Shown: one piece after another, positions 5,198 to 57,539 of the stretch
Numbering within the stretch: position 1 is the stretch's first letter
Layout: the number at the start of each line of letters is the position of its first letter
From: Agelas oroides
Taxonomy: Eukaryota; Porifera; Demospongiae; Agelasida; Agelasidae
Direction: 5' to 3'
DNA length: 64,000 nucleotides
Assembly (NCBI GenBank): GCA_949130485.1
Contig: OX422184.1
Coordinates: forward strand, 25,589,674-25,653,673
Program-made: the position numbers and the translations under genes
Notes under the pieces: generated by a model
Database searches by the model: none
Told to the model about the DNA's origin: nothing
The model's input: only the letters and a program-made list of their open reading frames with translations

Positions 5198-5520
5198 TTA
5201 CTGTTCAAAATTAGGACATTTCACAGTGCTTATATCATCAGCTAGGGTGTAGAGTTCAGTGTCACGTAAGACCTCAACAAGGGTGGCCCAAGTCACTGGC
5301 TGCTTGCCTTTCCCAGCTAGCCACTCTTGAAGGATTTCTGTATTGATTTGGGAGGGATTGGATTGGTGATTGGATTTGATGCTCTTAACTTTCTGTCCAT
5401 TTAAATCTTGCAGGAGAAAGATGCCAAAGCACCTATATTCATCACCAATCTCTTTTGTAATGTTAATAGTTTTGTTCTCAGCACATGCGAACTTCAGTAG
5501 CTCTGGCATAGTAGGTTTAC
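5198..5520 (-). CDS. Terminal exon: C-terminal Death domain
   Basis: The acceptor is TCTCTCACAG ending at 5521. The frame enters in phase 1 and runs 107 codons to a TAA at 5198-5200. The segment from LLKFACAENKTINIT through WATLVEVLRDTELYTLADDI has the six-helix Death-fold pattern: an Ile/Leu-rich first helix, ILQEWLAGKG before a W..L..VLRD segment, and a terminal A-D-D-I helix. It supplies the interaction end of the kinase gene. The linker exon at 6240-6296 splices into it in phase (G plus GT gives Gly). The polyadenylation site was not assigned. Confidence 0.8.
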
Positions 5521-8500
5521 CTGTGAGAGAACAAGCATACAAGTGCTTTACACACAGTGGCAGCGATTAGCTGTTTAGTTAAATCTAGTCACACATTGTA
5601 ACACATTTGTCACTTTGATACTATTATGTACGTAAAGAATAAACAACTTTAATATCTTCTAGAAGCTATTGACAAGGGAGTAGATGTACCCTATATATAG
5701 GGCTACCCACTGTGATACTGATGAGAGAACAGGCACACAAGTTCTTCATACAGCTGTTTAGCTCAATCTAGTTACACATTTTAGCACATTTGATACTGAG
5801 CAAGTCAAATGAGAGGAACAGAATTAGTGATTAGCTGTTGAGATAAAATTGTTACACACTTTGTTGCTATTACGTAGTATATAGGGCTATAATGAACAAC
5901 TTTATTGCCTTCTAGAAGGCATTGATAAAGGTGTACTCTGTATTCATGCTACCACTCTGATACTGATGACAGAACCCAAACAGTTCACTTTTGCATAAAT
6001 GGTGGCAGTGATTAGCTGTTTATCTAAATTTAGTTACACGTTGTAGTACATTTGTCACTTTGATACTACTACATAAGTAGAGCTATAATAAACAACTGTA
6101 TATAACATCTTCTAGAAGCCATTGACAAGGAAGTAGATGTACCCTGTATTCATGCTGTGATGCTGATGATAGAACCCAAACAGTTCACTTTTGCATGGCA
6201 ACCTACCACAGAGTAATTTCAATACTCACCAGCCTCAAGGCTAGCAGCAGCAGGTGGAGTTGAGAAAGTCAAATGAGAGGAGCCTGCTGTGAATGAGAGA
6301 AACAGAGTTAGTTACAAGGGAAACTAGGAACTGTATAGGTCCAACTACAGTGCTCCAAAGCAAGAAATCTTGATACTGGAAATTTTAGTAGTTGACACAC
6401 CAAAATATACATAGTACATAAAAGGATTGACTCAACATGCTTCTGCTAAATTAATTTAGCACCACGTGATGGGGCCTACCTACTTTCTGGAGTGGGATAA
6501 AGCAGGACACTTCTGAAAAACGTTCCAGAAAGTAGAACTGATTTGTGACAGATTTGTAGTGTCAAACTCATTAAGTGATATTAAGATTTAACCACAATTT
6601 CTGTGATTGCCCTGTCATTCCAGAAATTAGGTACGTGTATTTTCAGAAGTGTCCTGCATGCCTCACCTCATTCCAGATATAGGCCCACATCATGTGATGC
6701 TTACAGAAGCGATGAATTGTGGTTAAATCTCGATATCACTTCACCATGAGTTTGACACTATATACAAATCTGGGAATCATCATCACGGCATGCAGAATGG
6801 TACAGCAACTACAAGCCAACTAGTTGCACAAGTCATTGGCACTCATTGCTGACTGAAGCTCCACCCCACAGCATAAGACAAGTTTGTAGTGTAATGCTAC
6901 ATAACTACGTTGGTCTACTGTTTCGCCATCCCAGGAATTAGGCATTTCACAATTAACATTATCCTGGGATATAAGCAAGTTAAAATTTCTTTAATAGTCA
7001 TCTCAGAAGTTAGGTGTGTATATTTTGGAAATAACACTGTCTTGTCCCATTTGTCCTGGAAAAATAACTAGATTCCTACTTTGTCAGTCAGACACTTAAG
7101 ATGTGCATATAATATACAAACAGAAAAGAATACACTACAAACCTATGCACTTCACTCACCTGCTGACTGGGTTCTGGGACTAAGTAAGGGCTCCGTGTCT
7201 GCAAGCAATTAATGAATCCATTGACTATATCTGAGAGTATTAACACTATTATGGGTTATCTCAGATCCTATGAGTATACTAAACTAAACTACAGCTCAAG
7301 AAGTATTGAGGCACTATTCTTGAGAGAATGCAAAACTTATGAAATGCTACCTGGGTTCACAATGAGGTGGATGAAGGTTTGTGGTGCTTTGGCTCCAGTG
7401 AGAACCACTTTATGTCTCAGTCGAACAGGTTTCTGGTCCTCCTTCTCCCACTGTACAACTAGCTGACATTCTGGTATCAGCCGACCTTTTTTAAACTGGT
7501 CTACATCCTCCCTGCAGATCTGATGTATGGGTAAATCCAATTCAATGTTGATAACTAATATGGTAGTTGAAACTATAATGATTACCTGTTACTACTGTGG
7601 TATGCACTAGTACTCATGTCTAACTCACAGTGGGGGCAGTGAGTGGTGTTATTCTCCAGCCCTCCTTTGTCACCAGTCCATCCGCAGAAATGTCCAGAGC
7701 AATTTCACTGTGCTCAAATCTAACATGAAATGTGGCTTCTCGATTGGCAAAATGGCGATAGTGCTCTCTCACAACCTGCAGTGAGGTTTGACCGATACAG
7801 TAAAGTGATACCTAACAATGCATCAGAAGAAATTTACCATATTCTTTGTATCAAGATCTTGTATGATGACAAAGTAGAATCTCCACTCATAGTCCTCCTT
7901 CTTAGTGTGGTATAAATGTGCACAGTATGATCGCAGTGTTCCTTTTCTCCCAGTCACACCAACCCCAGAGAAATGGTTCAGCTGGATGCTACCATACGTG
8001 CTGTTTGTGGTAAACACTCCTCCAACCAACTGTCTAAATCTGTATGGAAGGTCCCTTTGAGAGCATTTGGTGAAGACAAAGCTAAGGTTAGACAATACTG
8101 CTTCATCCTCTGTGACTGCACAGTGTTGGATTTCCAAGGTCACAAGCTTTGTGAACTTGCATGGTGCTGAGATCCAAAACATGGGGCTCAGGAGATCTGA
8201 ACCTTCAGGTAGCTGAAACTGCCCAGAAAGGCTCACTCTGATGTTGATCCTGCACTCTCCCATGCCAGGTGGAAGGCTGTCTTTGGGAACATGAAGCCTC
8301 AGTCCATATCCCTTCCACTGAAACAAGCCTCCTTCAGTTGAAACTGAAAACTCGACTTCCCCAGCCACCTCCACTCCATGAATGGAGCCTGGAAAAAGTG
8401 AGTGTGAGTTTACCTTACAGTTTTACATTTGTCTATTTCTTCACTTTGCTGCTCTGTTTACCTACAATAATAATATAAACAGAGAGTGTTAATTTACCTT

Positions 8501-11500
8501 TCTGTGTCACTATCTGCTGTTGCAAAACTTTGTCTAAGTCCTGTCGTAAGTGTAGTTTCTCTTCCTGCAACTCCTGGATCATTTTCTCTTTCTGCTGAAG
8601 GTTTTGCTGGAACTGTCCAGTTACCTGCTCACTGGCTGTCAGCTTTTGGTTCAGCTCTTGAAGTCGTCTCTCTCTGGCATCAATATCAAAATCTTTCTCC
8701 TGAGTTACCTGTTGAAGTTGCTGTATCTTTTGTTCTCTTGTGGCTATCACTGCATCCTTTTCTCTGACTTGATCATCACTCACTTGTAACTGTTGCTGGA
8801 GGTCTTGAATTTGTTTTTGCTGCTGTTGCAGTTCCCTGAGTTGTCTTTCTTTGTCCTCTTTGACTGCTGTGGCTGCCCTTCTCTCTTGAGCTTGCTGCAC
8901 ACTCTCACCATATTGGGGAGCTTCTTTCAGTGCAGCTAGGCGACGGCAGAGTTTCTGAGCTGAGGGCCTGTATTTCTCATTGTAGATCAGGCAGTCAGTG
9001 GCCATGGGGAGGAGGGGGTGAGTGGGGTCAATCAGGTCTATGTGTGACTTACGACGTTCAGTTTCAAGAACTGGCACATACTTACTTCCAGTTGGAGATA
9101 GTGGGTCTCTGACTTTTTTGGTACGAGGGCTGGGATCAGGAAATTGCCGAGTAATGATTTGTATGTCCAGTACACCAAACGAGAAGGAGTCCAACTTCTT
9201 GGTGTAAACTGGTGGATCACCTAATGCCTCAGGGGACATGTATGCCAGTGTGCCTGGGCACATGGTGAGGGGGGTCATAGTAGCACGACTGATGTTGAAA
9301 AGCTTTGCCATTCCAAAATCTGTGACCTTGACCCTGTTTCCTCCAGCAATCAGGAGGACATTGTTGCTAGAGAGGTCACGATGTATGATGTCATTTGAGT
9401 GGAGGTAGGCAAGAGCCAGGGCTACGTCATGGCAAAGATCCACTTGGGTGTGGTAGGGAAGTGGTTCTTGGGACTGCTCAAGGAATCGGGTCAAATTGTC
9501 ATCCATCAACTCCATTAGGAGCACTGGCAGTCGCGTTTCTTGGTCTTGGTATAACCCTAAGTACTGTACAATGTTGGGATGCCTTATTGCACTCAAAACA
9601 CTGCACTCCTGCTGGAATCGTTTCATGATGGTCATTGATCCAGGGTCACCAGACTGAAAGAGAGTGGGATGGAGGATTTTCCCAGCAGAGGGCAGGTCGT
9701 CACACATAGCCTTGTAGACAGCTCCATAGGCGCCAGTACCCAGGGGTTCAGTTTTGATGAGTTGGATGTTTCGGTAGCCAATCTGTTCCTGGGCTTGCTG
9801 TGGCACTGCAGAATGAAAATTATGACAAGAAAAGTGACTAGTGGAATGCAAGTCATTGCGGGGAAGTCTAAAAGGGTGTATGCAGAACATGGAGGTATAA
9901 CCACTCTTCCCTCGATATGGTATTTGATTGACGCAGCTAGTGCTATTTAAAATACAGAGGAAAAGGAATTGAGGTAACAAATTACTTTTGCCAAAGAATA
10001 GACAACCCTGCTGGCATCCAGCCACAAGAACTAGAGATGCGTCTATAACGCCAGCATAATTTCCAGAATAATGTGAAGCACTGGTGGATCTTATGATGGG
10101 TCTAGTGGCTCAGCAGCATTTCCAAACACTGGGAGAGAGCAAAGGATTCAAGGATGTGTTAATGAACAGGCCACATTCTCTTATAAGTTAAAAACCATCT
10201 GTGCAGAAGCATAGAGGCCGTGAGAACATTCAAGAACTGAAGACAATTGAACCTGAGAAAACACACAAGAGACTACCCAAACAAACCACTTATTGTGGCA
10301 CATGCTCAAATAGTAAACGATTTGCTGTACTTGTTATGAGCACAACAGGCACTTTCTTCAGCATAATGGGTGCAAATTGCTTGTTACACCCCAAGTGGAA
10401 AGAAAGAATAGTAATCAATGAATGAATAGCCACAAAAGTGCACATGCATGCCCAAAGTTTCAGTGTTTCATTCCCAGCCTGAGTGGACTTACACACCAGG
10501 GACAAGATGCTCTGAGCATTTAGAGTGAGAAAAACCACTCAGCATGGATTCTTTCCCGATGGAGAGAATTTTCCGGTCGACCCCTAACGGAGTTCTGACG
10601 GCACATGCTGAGTGGCTGCCAGGTGTGCGACTGAGGCATTCAGTACCCCTGTGCAGTACATATAGAGGATTGTGGGGGTTGGTGGTTGTCCAGCTGCCGT
10701 AGCTCAGGGGCAGAGCACTGGCAGAGCACTGGCAGTTCAAGCCAGGTGTCCTGGGTCCGACTCACGGCGGCTGTCTGCCTTTTCACTTTCGTCTATTTTC
10801 GCCTATCATCTAAATTCCTTTATTTCTAGCATGAGGCAAGATGCTCAAAGCATTTAGAGTGAGAAAAACCACTCAGCATGGGTTCTTTCCTGATGGAGAG
10901 AATTTTCCAGTCGACCCCTAAAAGAGCCTTGACGGCACATGATGAGTGGCTGCTAGGTGTGCGACTGAGGCATTCAGTACCACCTGGTGGGGGTTGGTGG
11001 TTGTCCGGTTGCAGTAGCTCAGTGGCAGAGCACTGGCGGCTCAAGCCAGAGGTGTCCTGGGTTCGACTCCCGGCGGCTGCCGGCCTTTTCGCTTTCCTCT
11101 ATTTTCACCTCATAACATCACTTTATAAGCTAGATCTATTAGCTACAACTTTCTGGTAGCAGACTACTGATACAGTACGGCCACACTGAGCTACAAGTCA
11201 CTTTGACACTTCAGCGAAATGCACACTTAGCTGCTGGCTTGATGCACTACAGCACATTTCGTGCGTCCACAGCGCTTTTGATGGCCATCTTCTGCCCAGC
11301 CAGTCAACACTAAATAGGCCTGCTTAGAGCGCATATAAACATGACATGGGCGCTCCACCCCCCTCTTTGGCAGACTTGTAAGGTGCTCTGCCCATGGGCG
11401 CTCTTTTGCGAGATTACAGTATTATTTAAACAACTAGTAGCATTGTAGTTACTTATTTTACAATCGTAACTATGTGAGATCCCAACAGCTGTACTGATCT

Positions 11501-13511: not shown

Positions 13512-13559
13512 TCATTTGTGCTTCCCCTTGCAGACTGAGTTGTACTGACATCTTTACCA
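13512..13559 (-). CDS. Linker exon of the Death-exon array
   Basis: A 48-nt exon between CTTGCTGCAG and GTAAGTG, phase 1 both sides, coding VKMSVQLSLQGEAQM plus split codons. It is a diverged relative of the linkers at 23065, 29767, 35536 and 41070 (shared QMSV, PLSLQGEPQM pattern). Confidence 0.5.
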
Positions 13560-13975
13560 CTGCAGCAAGGAGGGTAGCATTATTGTTAATTCCAGGACTA
13601 CAATATGACGGTGAAGGATAGAAACGTTCATAGCAATCTCAATTCTAAGATGGTTTTCATGGGACATAGCTTCACTTTCGGAGGGCAAGAGTTGAGGTCT
13701 GTGTTTACTTCAGCTGTGTGCAAAAATAGTAAGTGCTACAGTGAGTGCTACATAAATTAAGCTGCTTCTAAAAGTGAAATGTCTACTGTACAGCTGCCTC
13801 TTGATCTTGTGTTTGCCCTCCGGAAGTAGGACGCTTAATTGACATTTGGAAACCATCTATAGTGGTCATGCATTATCTCAGAAAAGCATGGTGCTCAATA
13901 TATGTACATGCATAACATGGTAACATAAATGGTACCTGGCATCATATATTTAAAAGAGGTGGCTAATAAACATAC

Positions 13976-14272
13976 CTCCAGCCTTATGCTTCTCAGCTAT
14001 TGTCCTTGCAAGTGCTTTGTTTGCTCCACCAGCAGGATGTCCCACTGCTTCTACCAACTGCCGCCATGTTGGCCTACCAAACCTCCCCACATTGTATTCT
14101 CCCTTCAGCCACTTTGTTATCAATGAAGTCAGGCAAGCAGTCTGGTTATCCCTCCACTCAGCTTCAATGTCCTTCAAGAGATCAGGATTTAGTCGCAGAG
14201 CAATTGCAATGCCCTTCCAGTTTCTGGTGACTGGAAGAAGCTCACTTAGCACATCAAAGTGATCATCAAGAT
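13976..14272 (-). CDS. Death-domain exon
   Basis: A 297-nt exon with acceptor TTCACTTCAG and donor GTATGT, phase 1 both sides. The first helix region is DHFDVLSELLPVTRNWKGIA, then ALRLNPDLLKDIEAEW, ITKWLKGEYN, TWRQLVEAVGHPAGG and a final ALARTIAEKH helix. The W..L..A pattern and the central D..I..E helix are typical of Death domains. It is much more diverged than the exons at 24-49 kb, so it is an old member of the array. Confidence 0.8.
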
Positions 14273-15465: not shown

Positions 15466-15878
15466 GTACAACTCATGAAGCTAAGAAGCTTAACAAGACT
15501 TGAGGTTAGGCCCCTTTATGTTAAGTAGTAATGAGGCTAGGCTGACCTTTAGGCTAACATCATCACTCTGGAAAGGCAGGAAGAAGGGTACTAGTTCGTA
15601 GGTCATCATGAATTTGGCGAAGGCAGCCAGACACAAAGCTTTTACTTGAACATAGGGAACAAACAGCCTGCAGTTTCTCTCAAGGTACATGTAGGAGTTT
15701 TGCCTTCAAGCAGCTTGGAAACTGGCTGATATGTCAGGGGTGTATATATATATATATATAAGTATTAAGCAGTATAGTAGGGGCATTTCAAATCACTAGT
15801 GTATAGCTACCTGGCCATAGAACACAATCTCATGAGGATGATGGGGTTGGGGTAATAGTATTTTAAGTAATTACCCAC

Positions 15879-15932
15879 CTAGTGGAGTAGAATCAACTTG
15901 TGAGGGATTGTTGATACCAGGACTTTGTACAG
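15879..15932 (-). CDS. Linker exon of the Death-exon array
   Basis: A 54-nt exon between TTCTTCTCCTCTAG and GTGGGT, phase 1 both sides, coding VQSPGINNPSQVDSTPL plus split codons. Ser/Pro/Asn-rich, probably flexible. It sits between two Death exons on the same strand. Confidence 0.5.
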   Translation of the reverse strand: MYKVLVSTIPHKLILLH

Positions 15933-16936: not shown

Positions 16937-17236
16937 CCTCAAGAGTGTCCTTCATTCGGCCGTACTTTGCCTCCAGAATATCGGCCAGCGGACTTGCTCC
17001 CACACTTTGACCCCTGAGAGCAACTGTAAGAGTCTTCCAGCTAGGATAGTCACCGGTGATCAACCAAGTCTTGAGCATCTCCCGGAGCTGATCTCTATCG
17101 TCAGAGAATTGTGCTCTGATCCTGTCCAGTGTCCCAGCACTCAATCTGAGCTGGAGCCCCAGGGGATACCACTGTGTACGCACATCCAGAAGTTCCGCTA
17201 GCAGAAGGCTAAGGTCATCCAAGGTCAGTATGTTCC
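16937..17236 (-). CDS. Death-domain exon
   Basis: A 300-nt exon, acceptor CCTGATCTCCCAG, donor GTAAGC, phase 1 both sides. It codes DDLSLLLAELLDVRTQWYPL, GTLDRIRAQFSDDRD, MLKTWLITGD, SWKTLTVALRG and ADILEAKYG, a clear Death fold. Its 3' half is essentially identical to the exon at 49000-49299 while the 5' half differs (see findings). Upstream at 17569-17543 is a relic of the short start exon with its ATG lost. Confidence 0.85.
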
Positions 17237-18059: not shown

Positions 18060-19060
18060 CCTACTTCCAGCCATTGTGAGGCCCCTGAGAAGTCCTGCAG
18101 TTCTCCTTCAAATTCAGGGGGTGAGTCAAGGACAAAACTTTGACCTTGGTGCGCTGGAGGTGGTGTTTAGGATTGGTCTCGTTCCCGGACCACATTGTTC
18201 GCACCCGCCGGAGAAAAGCAGTCTGGGTACGAGACTAGTTTGGTTCCCAGGCCCTCACATTTTGTTCACTCCACTTTTTCCGCTGAAGGGTCTGGGAGCC
18301 AAACTAGGTTCGGTCTTCAATAGCCTAGAATGGTTTCAAGTTTGCTGCATAAGGGTCAAGTTTCAGTCACCATTTTGTTTCTTTTCAAAATGGTTTTGTA
18401 CACTGTTCCACTCTCCCCAAGGAGGTGTATATTACCTTTAAATACAGTATTTCCTGTTACAAATTCAAAATCTATCTGAGAGCATTTTAAAATGCACTAC
18501 AATTGCCTCAACCTGATATTCCTCATTATACCATGGATAATATAGTACTACGTGTATTACATTATCCATGATTATACATGTATATAACATCACCGGTGAA
18601 TAACTTTTATTCTCAATTCAATTAATTTCACATAAAAAATAGTTATATATCATAATTATAAACAAGGTTAATATACATACCATAAAACTTAATGCAGTGG
18701 CATGATACCAATTAAACCAGTCACAATCATCTTATTTTTAAGGCTCACAAGATTATCAATACAGTTGATACATTAATGTGGCATGTTAAAACGACCACAG
18801 TTTGATCCATGTTGATGATGTTTTGTGGAGCAATGCCCTTGTTCTTCTGGACCATGATGACTACTCCGTGAAAGGAGCATACTGAGCCTCACTTTTTGAC
18901 TACACGAAACTGAAGAACTGAAGATCAGTCTGTGCTTGTGTTCTGCGATTAACTTTCACCTTTGATTCCATTACAACTCAGAAAGATACGGTTGCACCAT
19001 TACTAGCGTCAGCCACCAATGTTGTCACAATCAATAATTGACTGCTAAACACAAGTAGCA
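18060..19060. other. No gene; dispersed-repeat fragment at 18.1-18.3 kb
   Basis: 18090-18260 shares motifs with 51160-51300: a GTCTCGTTCC...GCTCGCACCC..C.GG.GA..A...CTGG..ACGAGACTAG arrangement, itself an imperfect inverted repeat around GTCTCGTTCC/ACGAGAC. The remainder is AT-rich without features I can support. Confidence 0.4.
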
Positions 19061-19171: not shown

Positions 19172-19279
19172 CTGCTCCTAGATGTGGGAGAAGGTGAGAA
19201 GAAGAGGAGGTCTCTCCCTGAGCTACAGCAGGTTGCAGGGTAGGAGGAGGGGAGGGATAGTCGGAGACGGAGGGTGGAC
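19172..19279 (-). CDS. Pro/Ser-rich linker exon
   Basis: A 108-nt exon between CTCCCAACAG and GTAAAT, phase 1 both sides. It codes PPSVSDYPSPPPTLQPAVAQ, then GETSSSSHLLPHLGA. The composition is that of an extended linker between folded domains. Confidence 0.5.
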
Positions 19280-20004: not shown

Positions 20005-20283
20005 CTTCATGATTTGCTTTCAGAGTCAGCACAACTTTGGCATGTCCTCCCATGTCCTTTACAGCACGGGCCAGTTTGCTCCATGTGGGTTCTGGATCAT
20101 GGTGAAGCCAAAATTGTATGACTTCGATTTTGCATCGCTCAGGGTGCCTTTCACATTCCTTCTCAATTCGCTTCAGATCAGAATTTCCAATACCAAGCTG
20201 TTTACCTAGGGAGTACCAACTTCTCACTTCTTTGGTATCCCTCAAAATTTGTTTGAGAGAGATGGGAATAGCAGGGTTTTCAC
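20005..20283 (-). CDS. Death-domain exon
   Basis: A 279-nt exon with acceptor CTCGTCAG and donor GTTTGT, phase 1 both sides. It codes PISLKQILRDTKEVRSWYSL, GKQLGIGNSDLKRIEKECE, IEVIQFWLHHDPEPTWSKLA and a short final helix. The pattern 'W..LG..LGI...DL..I' and TWSKLARAV is characteristic of Death domains. It is the most diverged member of the array. Confidence 0.82.
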
Positions 20284-20289
20284 CTGACG

Positions 20290-21140
20290 AGAAATAAAGA
20301 GTTACTACATGTGAATCACAAATGTTAAGGGAAAATAATGCACAATAGTGAGGTGTTCAGTCTTAGCCAGATACAATCACTGAAACAAAATCTGTGTTTA
20401 TATTACAAAGTCAATATCTGCGGTCATATTCAGTTGGGCATGTGACTATTAATATGCATAAACAGCCTGATATACTGCTCTGTAAACATAAATGGGGGTT
20501 CTACAAAATGCAGAACACAGAATAGCAGCTGCAGAATAGAAACAATGAGATTCCAAGAATGCATATGCACAACGCGCATGTTTTGCAAGCTGCCCCCCTT
20601 CCCTGAACTTCAGCTTATGGCTGGCAGTTGAAGCACACATCAGCTTGGCTCAGAGTGATTTAAAATCATCACGAGTAATACTCTCCACACTATTTCCGGT
20701 GGGAACATGTTAAGTCAAATCATTAAGGAGTACGTCCCTGTACATCATCAGAATAAATTTCTACCTATTGCAGAAAAACAAAAACAACCCATCCCACTTA
20801 AAATGGCTATGTATGAATTATAACTTGGACAAGGCAGTTTGTGCTAAGCACATTGCTGCCATCATCTGTGCACTTTGAGTACATGAGCATGTGGAGGTGA
20901 CATGAAACGCTTGACTATGGATAACTGCTGAACTGAGAGTGTATGGCAGTTAAAAGTGCACAGGTGTCCTCAGAAAGAGTAACTTTGCACTCGTGTTCTG
21001 TTTCTGTCTGTTGCACGGTTACTACACATGAATTGTAACAACTGCAAGTGTATGTGTGCTACCTTATATGGAAGGAGTTAATTACATGCGCAGTGACTTC
21101 CGCGGGCACATGGAAGTATAGTTTGCATCTCAGAGGGAAA
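20290..21140. other. No gene recognised
   Basis: AT-rich intronic or intergenic sequence. Nothing beyond short, unconserved ORFs. Confidence 0.4.
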
Positions 21141-24646: not shown

Positions 24647-24946
24647 CCTCATGCATGTCCTTCACCAGGCAGTACTTTCTCTCCAGATCATCAGCCAACA
24701 GACTTTCTCTCACACTTCGACTCCTGAGAGCATCAGTAAGAGTCTTCCAGCTGGGATTGTCACTAGTGGTCAACCAAGTCTTGAGCATCTTCAGGAGCTG
24801 ATCTCTAGGGTCAGCGAACCGTGCTCGGATACTGTCGAGTGTGCTAATCTTCACTTTGAGCTGGAGTCCAAGGTGGTACCACTGTTCAGATACATCCAGA
24901 ACCTCCTCCATCACTTGACCAAGGTCATCCGAGGTTAGCATGTTCC
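24647..24946 (-). CDS. Death-domain exon (duplicated copy 1)
   Basis: A 300-nt exon with acceptor CCTGATCTTCCAG and donor GTAACC, phase 1 both sides. It codes SDDLGQVMEEVLDVSEQWYH, STLDSIRARFADPRDQ, MLKTWLTTSD, SWKTLTDALRS and LADDLERKY. All Death-fold helices are present. The protein is identical to the copy at 31080 and differs from 37118 by two residues. A relic of the start exon lies downstream near 24.1 kb, where the ATG is followed at once by a stop (ATGTAA). Confidence 0.85.
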
Positions 24947-29766: not shown

Positions 29767-29835
29767 TCATTTGTGGTTCTCCTTGCAGACTGAGTGGTAT
29801 CTGCTGGATTTCTGTCGATACTGACATCTGTGTCT
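29767..29835 (-). CDS. Linker exon of the Death-exon array
   Basis: A 69-nt exon between CTTTTGCTGCAG and GTATGACAGG, phase 1 both sides, coding TQMSVSTEIQQIPLSLQGEP plus QM and split codons. It is the best-preserved version of this linker. It lies 79 bp from the left end of the truncated Tigger element. Confidence 0.5.
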   Translation of the reverse strand, partial: RHRCQYRQKSSRYHSVCKENHK

Positions 29836-31079: not shown

Positions 31080-31379
31080 CCTCATGCATGTCCTTCACCA
31101 GGCAGTACTTTCTCTCCAGATCATCAGCCAACAGACTTTCTCTCACACTTCGACTCCTGAGAGCATCAGTAAGAGTCTTCCAGCTGGGATTGTCACTAGT
31201 GGTCAACCAAGTCTTGAGCATCTTCAGGAGCTGATCTCTAGGGTCAGCGAACCGTGCTCGGATACTGTCGAGTGTGCTAATCTTCACTTTGAGCTGGAGT
31301 CCAAGGTGGTACCACTGTTCAGATACATCCAGAACCTCCTCCATCACTTGACCAAGGTCATCCGAGGTTAGCATGTTCC
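31080..31379 (-). CDS. Death-domain exon (duplicated copy 2)
   Basis: Same 300-nt phase-1 exon and splice borders as 24647-24946, with identical protein. The surrounding block is collinear with 23947-27260. Confidence 0.82.
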
Positions 31380-37117: not shown

Positions 37118-37417
37118 CCTCATGCATGTCCTTCACCAGGCAGTACTTTCTCTCCAGATCATCAGCCAACAGACTTTCTCTCACACTTCGACTCCTGAGA
37201 GCATCAGTAAGAGTCTTCCAGCTGGGATTGTCACTAGTGGTCAACCAAGTCTTGAGCATCTCCAGGAGCTGATCTCTAGGGTCAGCGAACTGTGCTCGGA
37301 TACTGTCGAGTGTGCTAATCTTCACTTTGAGCTGGAGTCCAAGGTGGTACCACTGTTCAGATACATCCAGAACCTCCTCCATCACTTGACCAAGGTCATC
37401 CGAGGTTAGCATGTTCC
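37118..37417 (-). CDS. Death-domain exon (duplicated copy 3)
   Basis: Same borders and phase as the copies at 24647 and 31080. The protein differs by RARFADP to RAQFADP and LLKML to LLEML. These two changes match the exons at 45.8-48.5 kb, so this copy is closer to the 795-bp array. Confidence 0.82.
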
Positions 37418-41069: not shown

Positions 41070-41138
41070 TCATTTGTGGTTCACCTTGTTGACTGAGTGG
41101 TATCTTCGGGGTTTCTGTCGATACTGACATCTGTGTCT
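41070..41138 (-). CDS. Linker exon of the Death-exon array
   Basis: A 69-nt exon between TTTTGCTGCAG and GTATGACAGG, phase 1 both sides, coding TQMSVSTETPKIPLSQQGEP plus QM. It sits 78 bp before the complete Tigger element. Confidence 0.5.
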   Translation of the reverse strand, partial: RHRCQYRQKPRRYHSVNKVNHK

Positions 41139-41216
41139 CTGCAGCAAAAGGGCAACAATAAAATATGATTGTGGCTGAGAACTAGGACATATACATGTAA
41201 CCCTATTTTTGACATA

Positions 41217-43113
41217 CAGTAGGAAGTCACTTATCCGAACTTCAGTTATCCAAACACGTCGGTTATCCGAACCCCTCAGAAAGCCACGCCCACCGCTGCA
41301 ATCGCCACGTGGTCTATGCACGCAAGCAGAAGCAGCTGTATGGTGTGGCTAGTGCTAAATGGAAGAGAGTAGTTCTTACCATAAGGGAGAAGCTGAAGAT
41401 TTGCGAGTTAGTAGATAGTGGCAGGAGTTTAGCAAGCGTAGCAAAAGACTTTGATGTTGCAAAATCTACCGTTCACGACATTGTCAAAAGCAAAGCCAAG
41501 CTTCAGACGTTTCTCACGGAGATTCTGGAGGGGGAATGCATTAAGAAGAGAAAGGTTGTGAGAAGATCTGACTTCCAAGAGCTCGACAAAGCTGTGTATC
41601 TTTGGCTTATTCAACAGAGATGCAAAGGGACACCTATCAGTGGCCCGCTGTTGATGAGCAAATCATTGCAGCTGTATCCTCTTGTCTACCCAGATGATCC
41701 AGATCCTAGTGCATTCAAGGCAGGAACAGGATGGCTTAAACGATTCAAGGATAGGCACGGAGTAAGAGCATTGTCTGTACAAGGAGAATCACTATCAGCA
41801 GCTGCAGACACTGTAGGACCTTTCAAGAAGCAGCTTTGCAAACTTATTGAAGACAAAACTTTGACTTTGAACCAAGTGTTCAATTATGATGAAACGGGCC
41901 TATACTGGAAACTAATGCCAAACAAAACACTTGTTACATCCAGGGAGAAAGCTGCAAAGGGTTTTAAAAAGCCTAAAGATCGAGTTACACTAATGGCCTG
42001 TGCAAACCCAACTGGATCAATCAAACTCCCTCTGGTGTTTATCCACAAATCCTTGAATCCATGTTGCTTCAAGAATATCAAAAAAGAGGATCTTCCAGTA
42101 CATTACTATGCACAAAAAAGCTCCTGGATGGATACAACAATCTTTAAGAACTGGTTCCAGGAGCATTTTGTGTCACAATGCCGTAGAGCACTGGAGAAGA
42201 AAGGTCTTCCAAAGCGAGCTATTCTTGTGTTGGACAATGCCCCATCTCATCCAGATGTTGAAACGCTCTCCTCAGATGATGGGGAAATTTCATGTGTTTA
42301 CCTACCCCCTAACACCACTTCATTGATACAACCAATAGATCAAGGGATGCTGGAAATGATCAAGTGTCGTTACAAGCATCATTTGCTTCTTCGTCTACTT
42401 CATGAAGGAAGCGATGGTTCAATGGATATTGCTGAATTTTCTAAGACAATAAACATAAAGGATGCTGTTTTGATGTCTGCACAAAGCTGGGATGAAGTGA
42501 AGGAGGAGACCATAGCTAAGAATTGGAATAAGCTGTTGTCATTTTCTGATGCAGACCAGCAGGATTGTGAGTCTGCCGCCACCAATTCAGGCATTGACAC
42601 ACTTTTGGATGAATTGGATATTCCTCATACTGAGAGAAGAGACTGGCTCACATCCGATCAGAGTGATCCTGGCTATCATGAATTTACTGATGATGAAATT
42701 GTAACACTTGTACGAGAGGAGAACTGTAGTAACGAAGATGAATCTGATGATGATGAAGAGGTGGTTCCACAAACTGTTTCACATGCACAAGCCTTTAAGG
42801 CACTTGAAACAGTGCTGACATATGCTGAGCAACAGCCTGATGTACCAATGAGCACTACCATTATACTCAATGGCCTTTTGATGCAAACAGCAACTAAAAG
42901 AGTTAAGATTCAAAAACAGACCAGACTTAGTGAATACTTTAGTCCAAGCACATATACATGCAATACTAACTGATCTGTGCATAATAACATGTACAGTATA
43001 CATGTATAGACATGTGTTTAACCATCATTTTCTTGCAACTTCACTTATCCGAACATTTCAGTTATCCGAACACCCTCCAGTCCCAACGTGTTCAGATAAG
43101 TGACTTCCTACTG
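41217..43113 (+). mobile_element. Complete Tigger/pogo-family DNA transposon
   Basis: A 1,897-bp element. The left terminal repeat CAGTAGGAAGTCACTTATCC is mirrored at the right end (GATAAGTGACTTCCTACTG), with one mismatch in about 24 bp. TA flanks both ends (41215-41216 and 43114-43115), the pogo/Tc1-mariner target duplication. Sub-terminal GTTATCCGAAC motifs recur near both ends and may be transposase binding sites. It carries one long transposase frame. Confidence 0.95.
41309..42973 (+). CDS. Tigger-like transposase
   Basis: An uninterrupted frame of 554 codons between the terminal repeats. Numbered from the first codon of the open frame: a pipsqueak-type helix-turn-helix near 20-65 (LTIREKLKICELVDSGRS, SLASVAKDFDVAKSTVHDI), a CENP-B-type DNA-binding helix region near 85-155 (AVYLWLIQQR, GWLKRFKDRHGV), and the DDE core with D194 in FNYDETGLYW, D309 in LVLDNAPSHP and D344 in QPIDQGMLE. 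A C-terminal acidic tail follows. No in-frame ATG precedes the first HTH: the frame opens at GTG, the ATG at 41316 is in another frame, and the first in-frame Met is near residue 116. A start-codon indel, a non-AUG start or an upstream exon would explain this. Confidence 0.92.
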   Translation: MVYARKQKQLYGVASAKWKRVVLTIREKLKICELVDSGRSLASVAKDFDVAKSTVHDIVKSKAKLQTFLTEILEGECIKKRKVVRRSDFQELDKAVYLWLIQQRCKGTPISGPLLMSKSLQLYPLVYPDDPDPSAFKAGTGWLKRFKDRHGVRALSVQGESLSAAADTVGPFKKQLCKLIEDKTLTLNQVFNYDETGLYWKLMPNKTLVTSREKAAKGFKKPKDRVTLMACANPTGSIKLPLVFIHKSLNPCCFKNIKKEDLPVHYYAQKSSWMDTTIFKNWFQEHFVSQCRRALEKKGLPKRAILVLDNAPSHPDVETLSSDDGEISCVYLPPNTTSLIQPIDQGMLEMIKCRYKHHLLLRLLHEGSDGSMDIAEFSKTINIKDAVLMSAQSWDEVKEETIAKNWNKLLSFSDADQQDCESAATNSGIDTLLDELDIPHTERRDWLTSDQSDPGYHEFTDDEIVTLVREENCSNEDESDDDEEVVPQTVSHAQAFKALETVLTYAEQQPDVPMSTTIILNGLLMQTATKRVKIQKQTRLSEYFSPSTYTCNTN

Positions 43114-43319
43114 TACATGAAAACAAAGTACCTGGCATTATTTTTTGAAAGAGGTGTCCAATAAACTTTTATTGCAGACATCACACTTTTACTCAAACAT
43201 AGGAAGTAAACAGACTGCAATGTTTACCTAATGTAGGACTAGTTATCTACACAAATGAAGTCACTAGCACTAGCCAGGGCCTGTTAGCACACTTGTCCAC
43301 TTTGACCCCCAGACATGAT

Positions 43320-43773
43320 AGTGCTAACTAGATACTGCATCATCCTGGGGTGAGCCTGAGCGAGTAGCTGACAATGCAAGGGCCCAAGTGCAGGTGACCA
43401 CAATGCAGCTACACATGGGCTAAGCTTCATACACCATCAGCTAGCAATGCCCTTTACTGGTGTAAGTGGTATAGCTGAATCAAACTTTACATTCTGCCGC
43501 CTGTGACTCACAGCCTGCCTTGTCACATGGCCGTCATAGTACAGACTTATCTAGAAGTGTACTGCAAATGCATTCAACTTGAGTCGTCTTCACTCTTAGT
43601 CTTTCATGCCAATACTCTCATTCTGGTGAGCTGCAGTATACGTGGACAATATTCGTGAAATTTAAGTGGTCAGTCCAATCAAGCAAGCAAGCATGCACAT
43701 GCATGTGTGCAATGCAGTCATGCAGTAGTCATTGTCCATAGACTAGGCACTATCAGGTGATAATGCAACAGAT
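43320..43773. repeat. Partial copy of the first-exon block of the array unit
   Basis: GGGTGAGCCTGAGCGAGTAG, then CACAGCCTGCCTTGTCACATGG and CAGTCATGCAGTAGTCATTG align with 23.88-24.31 kb. The start-exon position reads ATGTAA on the minus strand, so it is dead. It ends at the foldback insertion, whose target duplication starts at 43765. Confidence 0.6.
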
Positions 43774-45717
43774 GGGCAACTGGAAAACACGGAAATGCGG
43801 GAACGAAAACGGGAGCGGGAAGGGGCGCCCAAAACGGAAGTCAATATTTTTGATTGGGTTGCTCACAACAAGTATTCTAGAGTAGCCAAGCCCCACGAGA
43901 GTCTGGCTACGCGACTAAGTCGTAGTAGCTGCCCTAGCACGAAAGATTGATGCATGAATGTTTGTATGTGTAGCTAGAGTAAGTTAGCAATCATCGGACG
44001 ACAGGTATATTCGGACACTCAAACGCGGAGGGAAAACTGCGTAAACATTCGGCGATACCACAAGACTGTAGCTGAGGTACGTGGTACCTGGTGTACCAAA
44101 AATGACGCCCGCGCATTGTTTCCTGTTGGCGCTAGAAGCGATAAAATGGCCGTCCGAAAAACATCAATATTCGGAAAAGTGTATGTATTTTCAGACACTG
44201 TTGTTTGTGCCTTCTCTGAAGCTGCTTTTGGAGAGATTTTAGCATCGATACGATGCCCCAAGACCTCCCCAATTCGCAATATATTTTGGTAGCGGTAGCT
44301 GCTTTGAACACTCAGGGGCGCAGCTGAACATGGACCAGTCCGATTCGATCGATATCGGACGGTGAAATTTGTCATTTCTTGCTGTGTTGTCTCCAAACAA
44401 GTTGAAGTCTCCACCATATTAGCATCAGTAGAATCTACAGGCTCTTGGCTACATGCTGGTACTTGTCCGGAGTTTGTGCGTTGAGTAGTTCTCGAGATAT
44501 AAATATATTTCATGTTTCTTTCATAAACTACGCTGGTTGATTTATGTGCAGCATAAAGAGGTGAGTTCAAACGATATCGTGCAATATCTCGAGAACTACT
44601 CAACGCACAAACACCGGACAAATACCAGCATGTAGCCAAGAGCCTGTAGATTCTACTGTTTGGAGACAACACAGCAAGAAATGACAAATTTCACCGTCCG
44701 ATATCGATCGAATCGGACTGGTCCATGTTCAGCTGCGCCCCTGAGTGTTCAAAGCAGCTACCGCTACCAAAATATATTGCGAATTGGGGAGGTCTTGGGG
44801 CATCGTAACGATGCTAAAATCTCTCCAAAAGCAGCTTCAGAGAAGGCACAAACAACAGTGTCTGAAAATACATACACTTTTCCGAATATTGATGTTTTTC
44901 GGACGGCCATTTTATCGCTTCTAGCGCCAACAGGAAACAATGCGCGGGCGTCATTTTTGGTACACCAGGTACCACGTACCTCAGCTACAGTCTTGTGGTA
45001 TCGCCGAATGTTTACGCAGTTTTCCCTCCGCGTTTGAGTGTCCGAATATACCTGTTGTCCGATGATTGCTAACTTACTCTACCTACCTGTCTGGTGAAAA
45101 CTGTCTTTGCCTATATACTGATATGAAAAGGTCGAGCAACGACTCTCAGGTTCACCCCTCAATACAGCTTAAATGCGAGCTAAGCTTCACTACGCCAGTC
45201 TACGGTGACATGGGAAGCTGCTTCTATGTAAAAGACACACAAGCCAGGCTGCTCATTGTCAAGAGATTGAGAGCTATGTACACTAGTCTGGCGCAGTCGG
45301 CCCCAGTGTGCTGCGCCCTCAGTTCTGGCTGAAGTTCTTGTGTAGGGTCATTAAGCCAACAGGCAGGACAAATGACTGTACTGTCGTATGCCTGTAGTTA
45401 GTCTCCTAACCCTAACCCGTTTATCATGTGAGAGTCTGACGCCACGAGACCAGCCAGTAGTGCAGCCGTCTACCTGGCTGCTACTCAGTTGATACAGAAC
45501 TACTCGCGGTCCTACGATGACGAAGCGGCTATGTCTCCCTGGTATAAGTTTACGGATTTAAGAATGTGCCCAGTGTGGTGCTAGTTCAGGCTTATCTGAG
45601 ACTCTTGGCGAGAGTATGGCCACGAGACTGGCTCACGTCCACCATATCTTTTGGTTGTTTCCGTTCCCGTTTCCGTTCCCATTTCCGTTCCCGCGTTTCC
45701 GTGTTTTCCAGTTGCCC
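43774..45717. mobile_element. Foldback element with long inverted arms and 9-bp target duplication
   Basis: Terminal repeats GGGCAACTGGAAAACACGGA (left) and its reverse complement at 45717. GCAACAGAT is duplicated on both sides (43765-43773 and 45718-45726); the uninterrupted site is seen in sister units as TGCAACAGATTGACC. Inside lies a large palindrome: 43973-44500 is the near-perfect reverse complement of about 44585-45081. The remaining 45082-45660 is unique. The open frames in the arms (44019-44687 minus, 44660-45037 plus) are one sequence read twice and match no family I know. Nine-bp duplication plus long arms suggests a Mutator-like foldback. Confidence 0.85.
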
Positions 45718-45778
45718 GCAACAGATTGACCCTCACCAACCATCTTTGTCTTTACTGACTGCTAGTGCTAGTGCTTAC

Positions 45779-46072
45779 CCTCAAGAGTGTCCTTCATGTA
45801 CTTTCTCTCCAGATCACTGGCCAACTGACTTGCTCCCACACTTTGACTCCTGAGAGCATCAGTAAGAGTCTTCCAGCTGGGATTGTCACTGGTGGTCAAC
45901 CAAGTCTTGAGCATCTCCAGGAGCCGATCTCTAGGGTCAGCGAACTGTGCTTGGATACTGTCGAGTGTGCTAATCTTCACTTTGAGCTGGACCCCAAGGT
46001 GGTACCACTGTTCAGATACATCCAGAACCTCCTCCATCACTTGACCAAGGTCATCCGAGGTTAGCATGTTCC
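45779..46072 (-). CDS. Death-domain exon (795-bp array, unit 1)
   Basis: A 294-nt exon, acceptor CCTGATCTTCCAG, donor GTAAGC, phase 1 both sides. It codes SDDLGQVMEEVLDVSEQWYH, STLDSIQAQFADPRDR, SWKTLTDALRS and LASDLERKYMKDTLEG. It is two codons shorter near the 3' end than the 300-nt exons. A complete Death fold. Confidence 0.83.
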
Positions 46073-46112
46073 CTGGAAGATCAGGAGTGGAACAATATAT
46101 ACACAGCTAAAA

Positions 46113-46419
46113 GCAGGAGATGACGACTCTGGAGTTGAAGAAAGGCTCCACAACAGAGACTGGTAAGAATCATGACTAAGATAATGCCAGTGTGTTTAAA
46201 ATTTCACGGACATAATAATATCATTATTGTAGGTGTCACTGTCAGTGTGGAAATTGTGTGATTATGGCGTGAGTGCATTTGCTGCTGTGAAGTATAGAAA
46301 AGGTGGTCATGAAGAAAGAAGAGAGTGCTAGTGAGATCAGTTGTATAACTGAGCATGAAGGATTCGAGTCAGTGTGTTTAAATGCATGGGTACCTCCCTT
46401 TAAAATTTATGGTAATTAA
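46113..46419 (+). pseudogene. P2X7-type C-terminal domain relic (unit 1)
   Basis: Two plus-strand exon pieces. The first codes AGDDDSGVEERLHNRDW and ends in donor GTAAGA at 46163. The second starts at 46233 after TTATTGTAG and, joined in phase, gives W-C-H-C-Q-C-G-N-C. A frameshift follows before RECICCCE and then CITEHEGFESVCLNAWV. The tryptophan, cysteine cluster and CITEH block match the cysteine-rich intracellular domain known from P2X7 and from many invertebrate proteins. Stops at TGA and TAG and the frameshift make it a pseudogene. Confidence 0.6.
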
Positions 46420-46573
46420 GTGGTCAGTCCAATCAAGCAAGCAAGCATGCACATGCATGTGCGCAATGCAGTCATGCAGTAGTCATTGTCCATAGAATTA
46501 TCAGGTGATAATGCAACAGATTGACCCTCACCAACCATCTTTCTCTTTACTGACTGCTAGTGCTAGTGCTTAC

Positions 46574-46867
46574 CCTCAAGAGTGTCCTTCATGTACTTTC
46601 TCTCCAGATCACTGGCCAACTGACTTGCTCCCACACTTTGACTCCTGAGAGCATCAGTAAGAGTCTTCCAGCTGGGATTGTCACTGGTGGTCAACCAAGT
46701 CTTGAGCATCTCCAGGAGCCGATCTCTAGGGTCAGCGAACTGTGCTTGGATACTGTCGAGTGTGCTAATCTTCACTTTGAGCTGGACCCCAAGGTGGTAC
46801 CACTGTTCAGATACATCCAGAACCTCCTCCATCACTTGACCAAGGTCATCCGAGGTTAGCATGTTCC
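46574..46867 (-). CDS. Death-domain exon (795-bp array, unit 2)
   Basis: Identical in protein to the exon at 45779, with the same borders and phase. Confidence 0.83.
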
Positions 46868-46907
46868 CTGGAAGATCAGGAGTGGAACAATATATACACA
46901 GCTAAAA

Positions 46908-48052
46908 GCAGGAGATGACGACTCTGGAGTTGAAGAAAGGCTCCACAACAGAGACTGGTAAGAATCATGACTAAGATAATGCCAGTGTGTTTAAAATTTC
47001 ACGGACATAATAATATCATTAACCCTCGGCGCGCATGCGCAGCGAGGGTTATAGTACTTCGTTTGTCTGTCTGTCTGTCTGTCTGTGTGTCTGTTACAAC
47101 TAGCTTGGCTCACCTGGCGGCTAAATCTCTGAAGTTTGGACGCAGATAGGCATCAAACCGAACGAGGATGTGTTTAAATTGAGCCGATTTCGCCAAGAAC
47201 GTTTTGTTCAAGAGTTATGCTGCGATTCGTTTGCCACGGCGAGCGCTAGTCGGCCATATTCTAGTCTGAGAACGAGTTCACGCACCCTGGTCTGGGATCC
47301 CGGGAGTGCAGCGCAGCGCCGCATTACTCCCGGGATCCCAGACTAGACCAGGGCGCGTGAACTCGTTCACAGACTAGAATATGGCCGACTAGCGCTCGCC
47401 GTGGCAAACGAATCGCAGCATAACTCTTGAACGAAACGTTCTTGGCGAAATCGGTCCTCGTTCGGTTTGAAGGCATATATGGGCAATACTGCTACAATAT
47501 GTATGTACATGCATGGTCAATAGTGCTGCAATATGTATGTACATGCATCGGGTCAATACTGCGGCTACAATATGTATGTACAGGCATGGTACATATCCAG
47601 GATCACCGCGCTGGGAATGTCCCACACATTCCCTACTCACTACACATGCTCACTACATTAGGAAGGGGTTTGTTGGGGCAAGATAAAGGGATACTAGGAC
47701 AACTTGGGACACTGTTATCTTGTACGACTTTGTGTAGTCTCAGCTAGCTATCTAGTGTACCATCATACCACATGAATTTCCTTCACCTACTTAGCTATGT
47801 CCTGTGACTCTGCGTTAATACTACGTGCCGAGGGTTAAGCACTTCAGTGCTCTTCATTATTGTAGGTGTCACTGTCAGTGTGGAAATTGTGTGATTATGG
47901 CGTGAGTGCATTTGCTGCTGTGAAGTATAGAAAAGGTGGTCATGAAGAAAGAAGAGAGTGCTAGTGAGATCAGTTGTATAACTGAGCATGAAGGATTCAA
48001 GTCAGTGTGCTTAAATGCGTGGGTACCTCCCTTTAAAATTTATGGTAATTAA
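46908..48052 (+). pseudogene. P2X7-type relic interrupted by an insertion (unit 2)
   Basis: The first exon piece (46908-46957) and the second (47865-48052) match unit 1. The intron between them is split by the 833-bp element at 47021. The same frameshift is present. Confidence 0.55.
47021..47853. mobile_element. 833-bp insertion with palindromic core
   Basis: Inserted into unit 2 with TCATT on both sides (47016-47020 and 47854-47858); sister units have an uninterrupted TATCATTATTGTAGG. It begins AACCCTCGGCGCGCATGCGC, followed by a GTCTGTCTG tract, and has a complementary CCGAGGGTT near its right end. Inside, 47180-47300 and 47340-47457 form an inverted repeat around GGGATCCCGGGAGTGCAGCG. Short AATATGTATGTACATGCAT units repeat at 47497-47590. 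No transposase. Confidence 0.8.
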
Positions 48053-48206
48053 GTGGTCAGTCCAATCAAGCAAGCAAGCATGCACATGCATGTGCGCAAT
48101 GCAGTCATGCAGTAGTCATTGTCCATAGAATTATCAGGTGATAATGCAACAGATTGACCCTCACCAACCATCTTTCTCTTTACTGACTGCTAGTGCTAGT
48201 GCTTAC

Positions 48207-48500
48207 CCTCAAGAGTGTCCTTCATGTACTTTCTCTCCAGATCACTGGCCAACTGACTTGCTCCCACACTTTGACTCCTGAGAGCATCAGTAAGAGTCTT
48301 CCAGCTGGGATTGTCACTGGTGGTCAACCAAGTCTTGAGCATCTCCAGGAGCCGATCTCTAGGGTCAGCGAACTGTGCTTGGATACTGTCGAGTGTGCTA
48401 ATCTTCACTTTGAGCTGGACCCCAAGGTGGTACCACTGTTCAGATACATCCAGAACCTCCTCCATCACTTGACCAAGGTCATCCAAGGTTAGCATGTTCC
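48207..48500 (-). CDS. Death-domain exon (795-bp array, unit 3)
   Basis: Same as units 1 and 2 except one residue near the start (TSDD to TLDD). Same borders and phase. Confidence 0.83.
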
Positions 48501-48540
48501 CTGGAAGATCAGGAGTGGAACAATATATACACAGCTAAAA

Positions 48541-48845
48541 GCAGGAGATGACGACTCTGGAGTCGAAGAAAGGCTCCACAACAGAGACTGGTAAGAATCA
48601 TGACTAAGATAATGCCAGTGTGTTTAAAATTTCACGGACATAATAATATCATTATTGTAGGTGTCACTGTCAGTGTAGAAATTGTGTTATTATGGCGTGA
48701 GTGCATTTGCTGCTGTGAAGTAGAAAAGGTGGTCATGAAGAAAGAAGAGAGTGCTAGTGAGATCAGTTGTATAACTGAGCATGAAGGATTCGAGTCAGTG
48801 TGCTTAAATGCGTGGGTACCTCCCTTTAAAATTTATGGTAATTAA
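48541..48845 (+). pseudogene. P2X7-type relic (unit 3)
   Basis: As in unit 1. The Cys cluster has one change (C-G-N-C to C-R-N-C), and the later stop codons are absent, so RECICCCEVEKVV runs openly into SCITEHEGFESVCLNAWV and a TAA at 48843. The shift between the cluster and RECICC remains. Confidence 0.6.
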
Positions 48846-48999
48846 GTGGTCAGTCCAATCAAGCAAGCAAGCATGCATATGCATGTGCGCAATGCAGTCA
48901 TGCAGTAGTCATTGTCCATAGAATTATCAGGTGATAATGCAACAGATTGACCCTCACCAACCATCTTTCTCTTTACTGACTGCTAGTGCTAGTGCTTAC

Positions 49000-49299
49000 C
49001 CTCAAGAGTGTCCTTCATTCGGCCGTACTTTGCCTCCAGAATATCGGCCAGCGGACTTGCTCCCACACTTTGACCCCTGAGAGCAACTGTAAGAGTCTTC
49101 CAGCTAGGATAGTCACCGGTGATCAACCAAGTCTTGAGCATCTCCCGGAGCTGATCTCTGGGGTCATGGAACTGTTTTCTGATCATATCTAGTCTCCCAA
49201 TCTTCACTTTGAGCTGCAGCCCAAGGGGATACCATTGTGAACATACATCCACAATCTCTTCCAGGACACGACCAAGGTCATCCAAGGTCAGCATGTTCC
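49000..49299 (-). CDS. Mosaic Death-domain exon (795-bp array, unit 4)
   Basis: A 300-nt exon with the usual borders. The N-terminal half is distinctive: LGRVLEEIVDVCSQWYPLGL, then GRLDMIRKQFHDPRD. From LREMLKTWLITGD to the end it equals the exon at 16937-17236. A complete Death fold is kept. Confidence 0.83.
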
Positions 49300-49427
49300 C
49301 TGGAAGATCAGGAGTGGAATAATAGAATATGAAAACTAAAACAAATTTACTCTCTTACAAATTCAATTAAAGAGCACAAAAAGTGCAAAACCCTTGGTAG
49401 CGTACGGTCCCCTATTATGGCCAGGCC

Positions 49428-49502
49428 CCTATTATGGCCACTTACTGTATTTAGCACTTTCTGAATAGAAAGTGCTAAATACAGTAAGTGGCCATAATAG
49501 GG
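49428..49502. repeat. Perfect long hairpin
   Basis: Two 34-bp arms (CCTATTATGGCCACTTACTG.. and complement) separated by TGAATA. A partial extra copy of CCCCTATTATGGCCA precedes it at 49409. No TA-flanked element could be delimited. Possibly the end-to-end remnant of a Tigger-like MITE. Confidence 0.85.
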
Positions 49503-49677
49503 TATTACTCAGCAATTCCACTTTTCCTGCATATGTGTAGTAATGCTATGGTAACGTAGTGCATGAAAAAACGGGGCATCTGCATTTTCTGGCCTCGGAG
49601 AAATATCACTTAAAGCAGTTGGCGGCAAACATGTCACTGACGATATTCGCGCGACAGCGTTCTGGTAATTCTAGAGA

Positions 49678-49752
49678 GGTAATACCATTGTGCAGATACA
49701 TCCCAAAGCTCCTCCATCACTTGGAAAAGGTCATTTGATGTCAGCATGTTCC
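49678..49752 (-). pseudogene. Truncated Death-domain exon
   Basis: Starts with the same acceptor (CCTGATCTCTCAG) and codes SNDLFQVMEELWDVSAQWYY, then homology stops at 49678. Only the first helix region is kept. It marks the outer edge of the array. Confidence 0.75.
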
Positions 49753-57508: not shown

Positions 57509-57539
57509 CAGACATTGACGTGAAAGTTCAGACAGGAGA

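Follow-up and report, generated by a model that had tools for sequence, protein, structure and literature searches.

The Death-domain exons that lie in tandem on the minus strand of this 64-kb stretch (C2:25589674-25653673; the window) are best explained as parts of one gene, here called gene C. It would have two first exons, and a cassette of Death exons together with the gene's own Death exons would be spliced to a kinase exon, giving proteins with 2 to ~11 N-terminal Death domains and a putatively self-cutting ZU5-UPA unit. Judging from the sequence, we give this reading a probability of about 0.6. The exon anatomy, the paralogy, the open frames and the cleavage motif are established directly.

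Gene C is one of four tandem paralogues, A to D, that occupy ~160 kb of the minus strand and have the same parts in the same order. The cluster was compared over 260 kb, made up of 200 kb around the window joined with the window, and the genome searched comprised 259 Mb in 141 contigs. In window coordinates the genes are placed as follows.

Gene A, minus strand: terminal Death exon at -64.8 kb (-64766), kinase at -62.7 to -61.4 kb
Gene B, minus strand: terminal Death exon at -37.2 kb (-37161), kinase at -34.2 to -32.9 kb
Gene C, minus strand: terminal Death exon at 5.2 kb, kinase at 8.5-9.8 kb
Gene D, minus strand: terminal Death exon at 75.4 kb (75378), kinase at 79.8-81.1 kb

The 3′ part of gene C consists of the following exons, given from the kinase to the stop codon.

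8498..9805, minus strand: kinase and coiled-coil-like exon, phase 1 at both ends; Pfam Pkinase 1.7e-40; acceptor conserved in A-D
7838..8388, minus strand: ZU5 exon, with HFS at the end of ZU5; Pfam ZU5 31.7 bits against a cut-off of 21
7629..7775, minus strand: first exon between ZU5 and terminal Death, phase 0 borders; conserved in A-D
7351..7519, minus strand: second exon between ZU5 and terminal Death (UPA by position); conserved in A-D, splice sites chosen in the model
5198..5520, minus strand: terminal Death exon, acceptor in phase 1, stop TAA; Pfam 21.7 bits, below the cut-off of 22.6

The kinase of gene C has the motifs HRDL, DFG and AGK, and the AGK, HRD and DFG residues are present in the kinases of all four genes. 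It may be called IRAK-like from a PDB sequence search, in which IRAK4 was among the best solved relatives (2.3e-21), with the top listed match labelled EGFR and with CDK, LIMK and ALK kinases scoring close to IRAK4. In other data, close relatives of this kinase (P0013, P0019 and others) have kelch-type domains in place of ZU5, so that this kinase has been joined to several kinds of partner. The HFS motif was found in each of the five ZU5 exons examined, those of genes A-D and of a paralogue on C11 (L049). Two conserved exons separate ZU5 from the terminal Death exon in all four cluster genes, and a Pfam scan of these presumed UPA exons gave no UPA match. The terminal Death exon of gene C has a weak PDB match to the Fas Death domain (E 0.056). 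Those of A and B are 84% identical, whereas those of C and D are ~20% identical to A/B and to each other; the C-terminal domain has thus been exchanged, or is very old.

The initial annotation described ten complete Death exons upstream of the kinase and a terminal one, all on the minus strand, and this is borne out. The open-reading-frame listing of the window contains ten complete Death-type frames at 13.95-49.35 kb and one at 5.2 kb on that strand, and nine of the ten upstream frames score above the curated Pfam cut-off for Death. The frame at 13953, of class alpha, has no Pfam match on its own; it is placed as Death because a profile of ten Death exons, led by the 13.98-kb exon, matches the Death domains of FADD (2.3e-7), RIPK1 and PIDD.

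13976..14272, minus strand: Death exon, class alpha, 297 nt, phase 1-1; 74-78% identity to alpha of genes A and D; splice sites
16937..17236, minus strand: Death exon, class beta, nearest to gene C exon 1; Pfam Death 28.7 bits; splice sites
20005..20304, minus strand: Death exon, class gamma, 300 nt, shortened to 279 nt if the acceptor at 20283 is used; Pfam 30.6 bits; 77% identity to gene B gamma, both forms being common to both
24647..24946, minus strand: Death exon, class beta, unit 1 of the ~6-kb repeats; Pfam 30.5 bits; splice sites
31080..31379, minus strand: Death exon, class beta, unit 2; Pfam 30.5 bits; splice sites
37118..37417, minus strand: Death exon, class beta, unit 3; Pfam 32.5 bits; splice sites
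45779..46072, minus strand: Death exon, class beta, in the short repeats; Pfam 32.3 bits; splice sites
46574..46867, minus strand: Death exon, class beta, the same as the 45779 exon over the compared codons; Pfam, repeat alignment, splice sites
48207..48500, minus strand: Death exon, class beta; Pfam 32.2 bits; splice sites
49000..49299, minus strand: Death exon, class beta, grouping with the 16937 exon in the tree; Pfam 29.3 bits; splice sites
49637..49834, minus strand: partial beta Death exon covering no more than the first ~38 residues, from the open-reading-frame listing; probably a relic

The symmetry claimed for these exons is equally clear. All ten upstream exons have AG at the 5′ border, GT at the 3′ border, a length that is a multiple of three and phase 1 on either side; they are 294, 297 or 300 nt long, the 20-kb exon being 279 nt if its second acceptor is used. 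The beta-class acceptor falls at the identical codon in 10 of the 12 genome relatives outside the cluster for which borders were printed, the other two being L024, printed to a point short of the acceptor, and L049, which is two codons off; a 13th relative, L016, has no clean frame. Places for symmetric exons common to the four genes number 14, 29 and 8 in phases 0, 1 and 2 on the minus strand, and 4, 17 and 4 on the plus strand, where 14 of the 17 in phase 1 are the antisense of Death exons.

The paralogues differ in the number and class of their N-terminal Death exons. The order from 5′ to 3′ is beta-alpha in gene A, beta-gamma in B, eight beta exons followed by gamma-beta-alpha in C, and beta-beta-alpha in D. 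Gene C has nine complete beta exons in all, of which one, at 67.8 kb, lies outside the window. In the Death tree the alpha exons form one clade (98/97) and the gamma exons another (100/97), while relations within beta are mostly unresolved. Beta exons are also found away from the cluster. A 474-aa open frame at C11:381078 encodes, besides beta Death, a stretch rich in proline and an unidentified domain; 3′ of it on the same strand come ZU5, a pair of UPA-like exons and a partial match to Death. Thus beta Death is an N-terminal part of ZU5-UPA-Death genes elsewhere too, there without a kinase. Upstream of a ZU5 exon at C10:1064915, on the same strand and within 8 kb, lie three Death matches (1067950, 1069015 and 1072419), and this region is possibly a second multi-Death gene. 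Death-like exons are very many in the genome as a whole: a first look with the Pfam model gave 870 candidates, of which 150 were scored.

Between the Death exons lie short linker exons, for which the following can be listed in gene C.

13512..13559, minus strand: linker L22, 48 nt, in the alpha Death/kinase interval; CTGCAG acceptor and ATGA|GTAAGT donor common to A (66 nt) and D (93 nt, ACGA|GTAAGT)
15879..15932, minus strand: linker L18, 54 nt, phase 1-1; CTAG acceptor and CTAG|GTGGGT donor; 57 nt in A, B and D, an in-frame difference of 3 nt
19172..19279, minus strand: linker L35, 108 nt, proline-rich; 92-93% DNA identity to A and B, both splice sites, a 3-nt in-frame indel
29767..29835, minus strand: copy of L22; conservation, splice sites
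41070..41138, minus strand: copy of L22; conservation, splice sites

At least eight linkers had been proposed initially. Conservation supports these five in the window, but further copies of L22 near 23.1 and 35.5 kb differ in their left part and gave no acceptable exon in the linker alignment. L18 is 57, 57, 54 and 57 nt long in A, B, C and D, L35 is 108, 105 and 108 nt in A, B and C, and L22 is 66, 48, 93 and 69 nt in A, C, D and the copies in the gene C array. All these differences are multiples of three, and acceptors and donors are kept. Taken with the conserved phase-1 borders, the frame-keeping indels indicate that exons can be gained or lost without a break in the frame. In A, C and D it is L22 that separates alpha Death from the kinase, and this position ties Death to the kinase. 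We considered L35 as clearly coding in phase 1 and rejected this, as identity is 91% in phase 2 against 86% in phase 1; the frame of L35 therefore rests on its splice sites and the one 3-nt indel. The upstream cassette of gene C yielded no copy of L18, a linker that gene B has.

Where would transcripts begin? A first exon could be recognized by its repetition in the cluster.

18065..18074, minus strand: coding part of gene C exon 1, ATG GCT GGA A, with the phase-1 donor GTAGGT; six genome copies, conserved leader 5′ to ~18127

Six beta exons are preceded on the 5′ side, at a distance of 0.8-2.2 kb, by the sequence ATG GCT GGA A|GTAGGT, with its ATG at -39839 in gene A, -24427 in B, 18074 and 69595 in C, and 87273 and 97309 in D (window coordinates). 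Five copies are identical at the donor, and the one at 97309 carries an insertion. When the genome was searched with 111 bases of the first exon, in a procedure that skips common words, there were six matches, all in the cluster. The phase-1 donor fits the Death exons, and the proteins would start MAGR or MAGG-like. A start at 12.8 kb was also considered, and the cluster alignment revealed no conserved first exon there; around 13.0 kb there is a short element with many matches across the cluster, apparently a dispersed repeat. Two first exons can thus be assigned to gene C, one at 18.07 kb before two Death exons and the other at 69.6 kb, outside the window, before nine. The upstream cassette comprises this outer exon 1, the beta exon at 67.8 kb, and eight more Death exons inside the window, seven of them beta and one gamma.

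Models spliced from these parts are open. The short one, exon 1-beta-L18-alpha-kinase-ZU5-two exons-Death, is a single open frame of 1052 codons, and the longest, with nine beta exons, gamma and alpha, is open over 1980 codons, L22 being left out of both. In the short model Pfam recognizes a kinase, ZU5 and two stretches of Death. When the two N-terminal Death domains from the full-length model served as the query of a protein search, not one of 5171 candidates received a score. With the Death-linker-Death piece alone there were 81 matches, mostly of 50-80% identity to one Death domain and none covering >53% of the query. The searches yielded no Death-Death or Death-kinase protein, which would be expected if the library is without spliced proteins but lends the models no support. 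In other sequence sets, P0121 (an alpha Death exon) and P0035 (a related kinase) are both given on 36,960-base contigs.

That the Death exons belong with the kinase gene is supported by the comparison of the paralogues. The upstream exons had been regarded as a reservoir for the kinase gene. This stands in that the order Death-linker-Death-linker-kinase recurs in related form in all four, but there are two cassettes with two first exons and not one reservoir. The second cassette might instead be a gene of its own: a front end of gene-B type (exon 1-beta-gamma-L35) would have lost its kinase and would make Death-only adaptors, leaving gene C with two N-terminal Death exons. The cassette has its own exon 1 at 69.6 kb, gamma and L35 stand together 5′ of the 18.07-kb exon 1 as they do 5′ of the gene B kinase, and kinase matches in this stretch of the cluster occur at 8436 only. 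Such adaptors would, however, end in intron sequence or in a 3′ exon so far unseen, and no terminal exon for the cassette was seen. Moreover, because the 18.07-kb first exon lacks an acceptor, L35 would most naturally be spliced to the Death or kinase exons of gene C, whose acceptors are all in phase 1. We consider a separate gene unlikely, while giving it some weight.

Judged by the identity of its units, growth of the Death array is recent. The ~6-kb units at 21-41.7 kb are 96-99% identical over long stretches, the short units at 45.7-49.3 kb are up to 99.8% identical, and several Death exons are identical or one or two codons apart. The suggestion that copy number changes by unequal exchange is upheld by this visibly recent unequal duplication, in units of 96-99.8% identity. 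With identities of 99.2-99.8% between some units, the copy number could in part be an artefact of the assembly, through haplotypes left uncollapsed or contig ends repeated; we think this very improbable, as the units are nested at ~0.8, 2 and 6 kb, differ by 0.2-4% and have a transposase gene between them, unlike one duplicated haplotype block. The copies might also be a decaying exon graveyard, produced by unequal exchange and left out of transcripts. A graveyard would suit the partial exon at 49637, the weak donors of the cassette (the 24.6-, 31.1- and 37.1-kb exons have GTAACC, the gamma exon GTTTGT), the frameshifted outer beta exon of gene D (two overlapping frames), the gene A alpha exon (acceptor AG lost, one extra base) and a beta dN/dS near 1. 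Yet the frames are open where drift would introduce stops into most lineages: simulated unconstrained drift on the beta tree left all eight beta exons stop-free in 0 of 5000 runs, with stops alone modelled and eight intact exons as the chosen set, and 30 of 99 columns are invariant across the eight, tryptophans included. We find the graveyard distinctly improbable. Pseudogene patterns of stop codons and dN/dS had been named at the outset as a check on the array; the open frames speak against them, but the beta dN/dS is not different from 1.

The array region and its surroundings contain other repeated sequence. A Tc5/pogo-like transposase with a 586-aa open frame (HTH_Tnp_Tc5, CENP-B_N, DDE_1) lies on the plus strand at 41213-42973, inside the Death array. 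Palindromic elements at 43970-45086 (1.16 kb, 90% self-complementarity) and 47184-47454 (0.28 kb, 91%) are probably the remains of mobile elements. Minisatellites occupy 52015-52610 (66 bp x 9) and 56538-57513 (57 bp x 17), and Pfam matches at 52 and 56.5 kb to the insulin and toxin families are artefacts of these repeats and were rejected. On the minus strand at 54410-54925 there is a weak reverse-transcriptase match of 24.2 bits, below the cut-off of 29.6.

Between the paralogues, dN/dS is 0.18-0.42 for the kinase and 0.24-0.34 for ZU5, and 0.86-1.36 for alpha, 0.88 for gamma and 0.47-1.30 for beta Death exons (pairs with dS above 0.05, the outer beta exon of gene D left out). The nonsynonymous/synonymous ratio of the Death exons is 2.3-3.5 times that of kinase plus ZU5. 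This contrast is found in six of six gene pairs (Fisher p 0.002 to 1.5e-5), which have sequences in common and so are not independent, and two of which use the damaged gene A alpha exon. For the eight beta exons a one-ratio model is no better than dN/dS = 1 (2 delta lnL ~2.5; kappa at six values). Strong purifying selection on the Death exons was considered and receives no support from dN/dS. In our reading the Death fold may be kept, with its surface free or driven to change.

On the preferred reading of gene C as a gene with two first exons, the short form would run from exon 1 at 18.07 kb through beta Death, linker, alpha Death, linker, kinase, ZU5 and UPA to the terminal Death exon. The second 5′ cassette would derive from a gene-B-like front end and be spliced in frame into the same kinase, skipping the inner first exon, which lacks an acceptor. 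We infer transcription, this joining to the kinase, autocleavage and a role in signalling. Two promoters and phase-1 exons would then yield proteins with 2 to ~11 N-terminal Death domains, which might act as fast-changing docking parts that nucleate Death-domain assemblies, their number setting the valency. The IRAK-like kinase would be the output, and the ZU5-UPA unit would cut itself at HF|S in the manner of PIDD, creating a releasable UPA-Death piece. A broader proposal, to which we would give rather less than even odds, is that this locus, with nested first exons and a growing Death cassette, makes self-cleaving kinase scaffolds whose Death domains vary in number and choice by transcript and by individual and serve as a fast-evolving specificity layer.

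Death-domain assemblies usually gain valency by the oligomerization of proteins with one Death domain. If Death domains are instead stacked by exon duplication, valency and choice of partner could be changed by unequal exchange within one locus, which would give immune or cell-death signalling a set of docking parts that are easy to alter. The four paralogues stand at different stages, with one, two or many N-terminal Death exons, and this makes the origin of such architectures testable. The cluster would also link a predicted PIDD-like self-cleavage with an IRAK-like kinase in what we take to be an early animal lineage, probably a sponge to judge by the domain families and the published work on Amphimedon.

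How does gene C compare with known systems? In Dscam arrayed variable exons are chosen one per transcript, and the protocadherins have clustered first exons. Gene C is like both in having repeated exons or promoters before a constant 3′ part, but its symmetric phase-1 exons would permit the use of several at once. IRAK and Pelle have an N-terminal Death domain and then a kinase, as does the gene C model by its predicted splicing; gene C differs in having more than one N-terminal Death exon and a C-terminal ZU5-UPA-Death part. The order ZU5, putative UPA and probable C-terminal Death would be that of the autoproteolytic PIDD1 and FIIND proteins NLRP1 and CARD8. These have leucine-rich repeats or NACHT in front, whereas gene C has a kinase and several Death domains; in the Pfam scan of the model, kinase and Death take the place of the N-terminal leucine-rich repeats of PIDD1. 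According to the available part of PMC3210808, PIDD cuts at HF/S after each ZU5; gene C and PIDD are alike in having HFS at the ZU5 end, from which cleavage in gene C is predicted. Among the titles and abstract openings that literature searches brought up, none described a Death-exon array of this kind. The initial view that no gene of this layout was known was nonetheless too strong, since the accessible portion of Kaur et al. 2021 (PMC8195603) describes Amphimedon TRADD-N proteins of the NCOA6 clade with 1-3 N-terminal Death-like domains and variable C-termini that include kinases. As far as that portion goes, both are lineage-specific expansions with N-terminal Death units, and gene C stands apart in its up to 11 N-terminal Death exons and two first exons. 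The Pfam scan of the gene C model gave no TRADD-N domain, though a divergent one could escape. Gene C would thus appear to combine a PIDD-like back and an IRAK-like middle with Amphimedon-like Death units in front.
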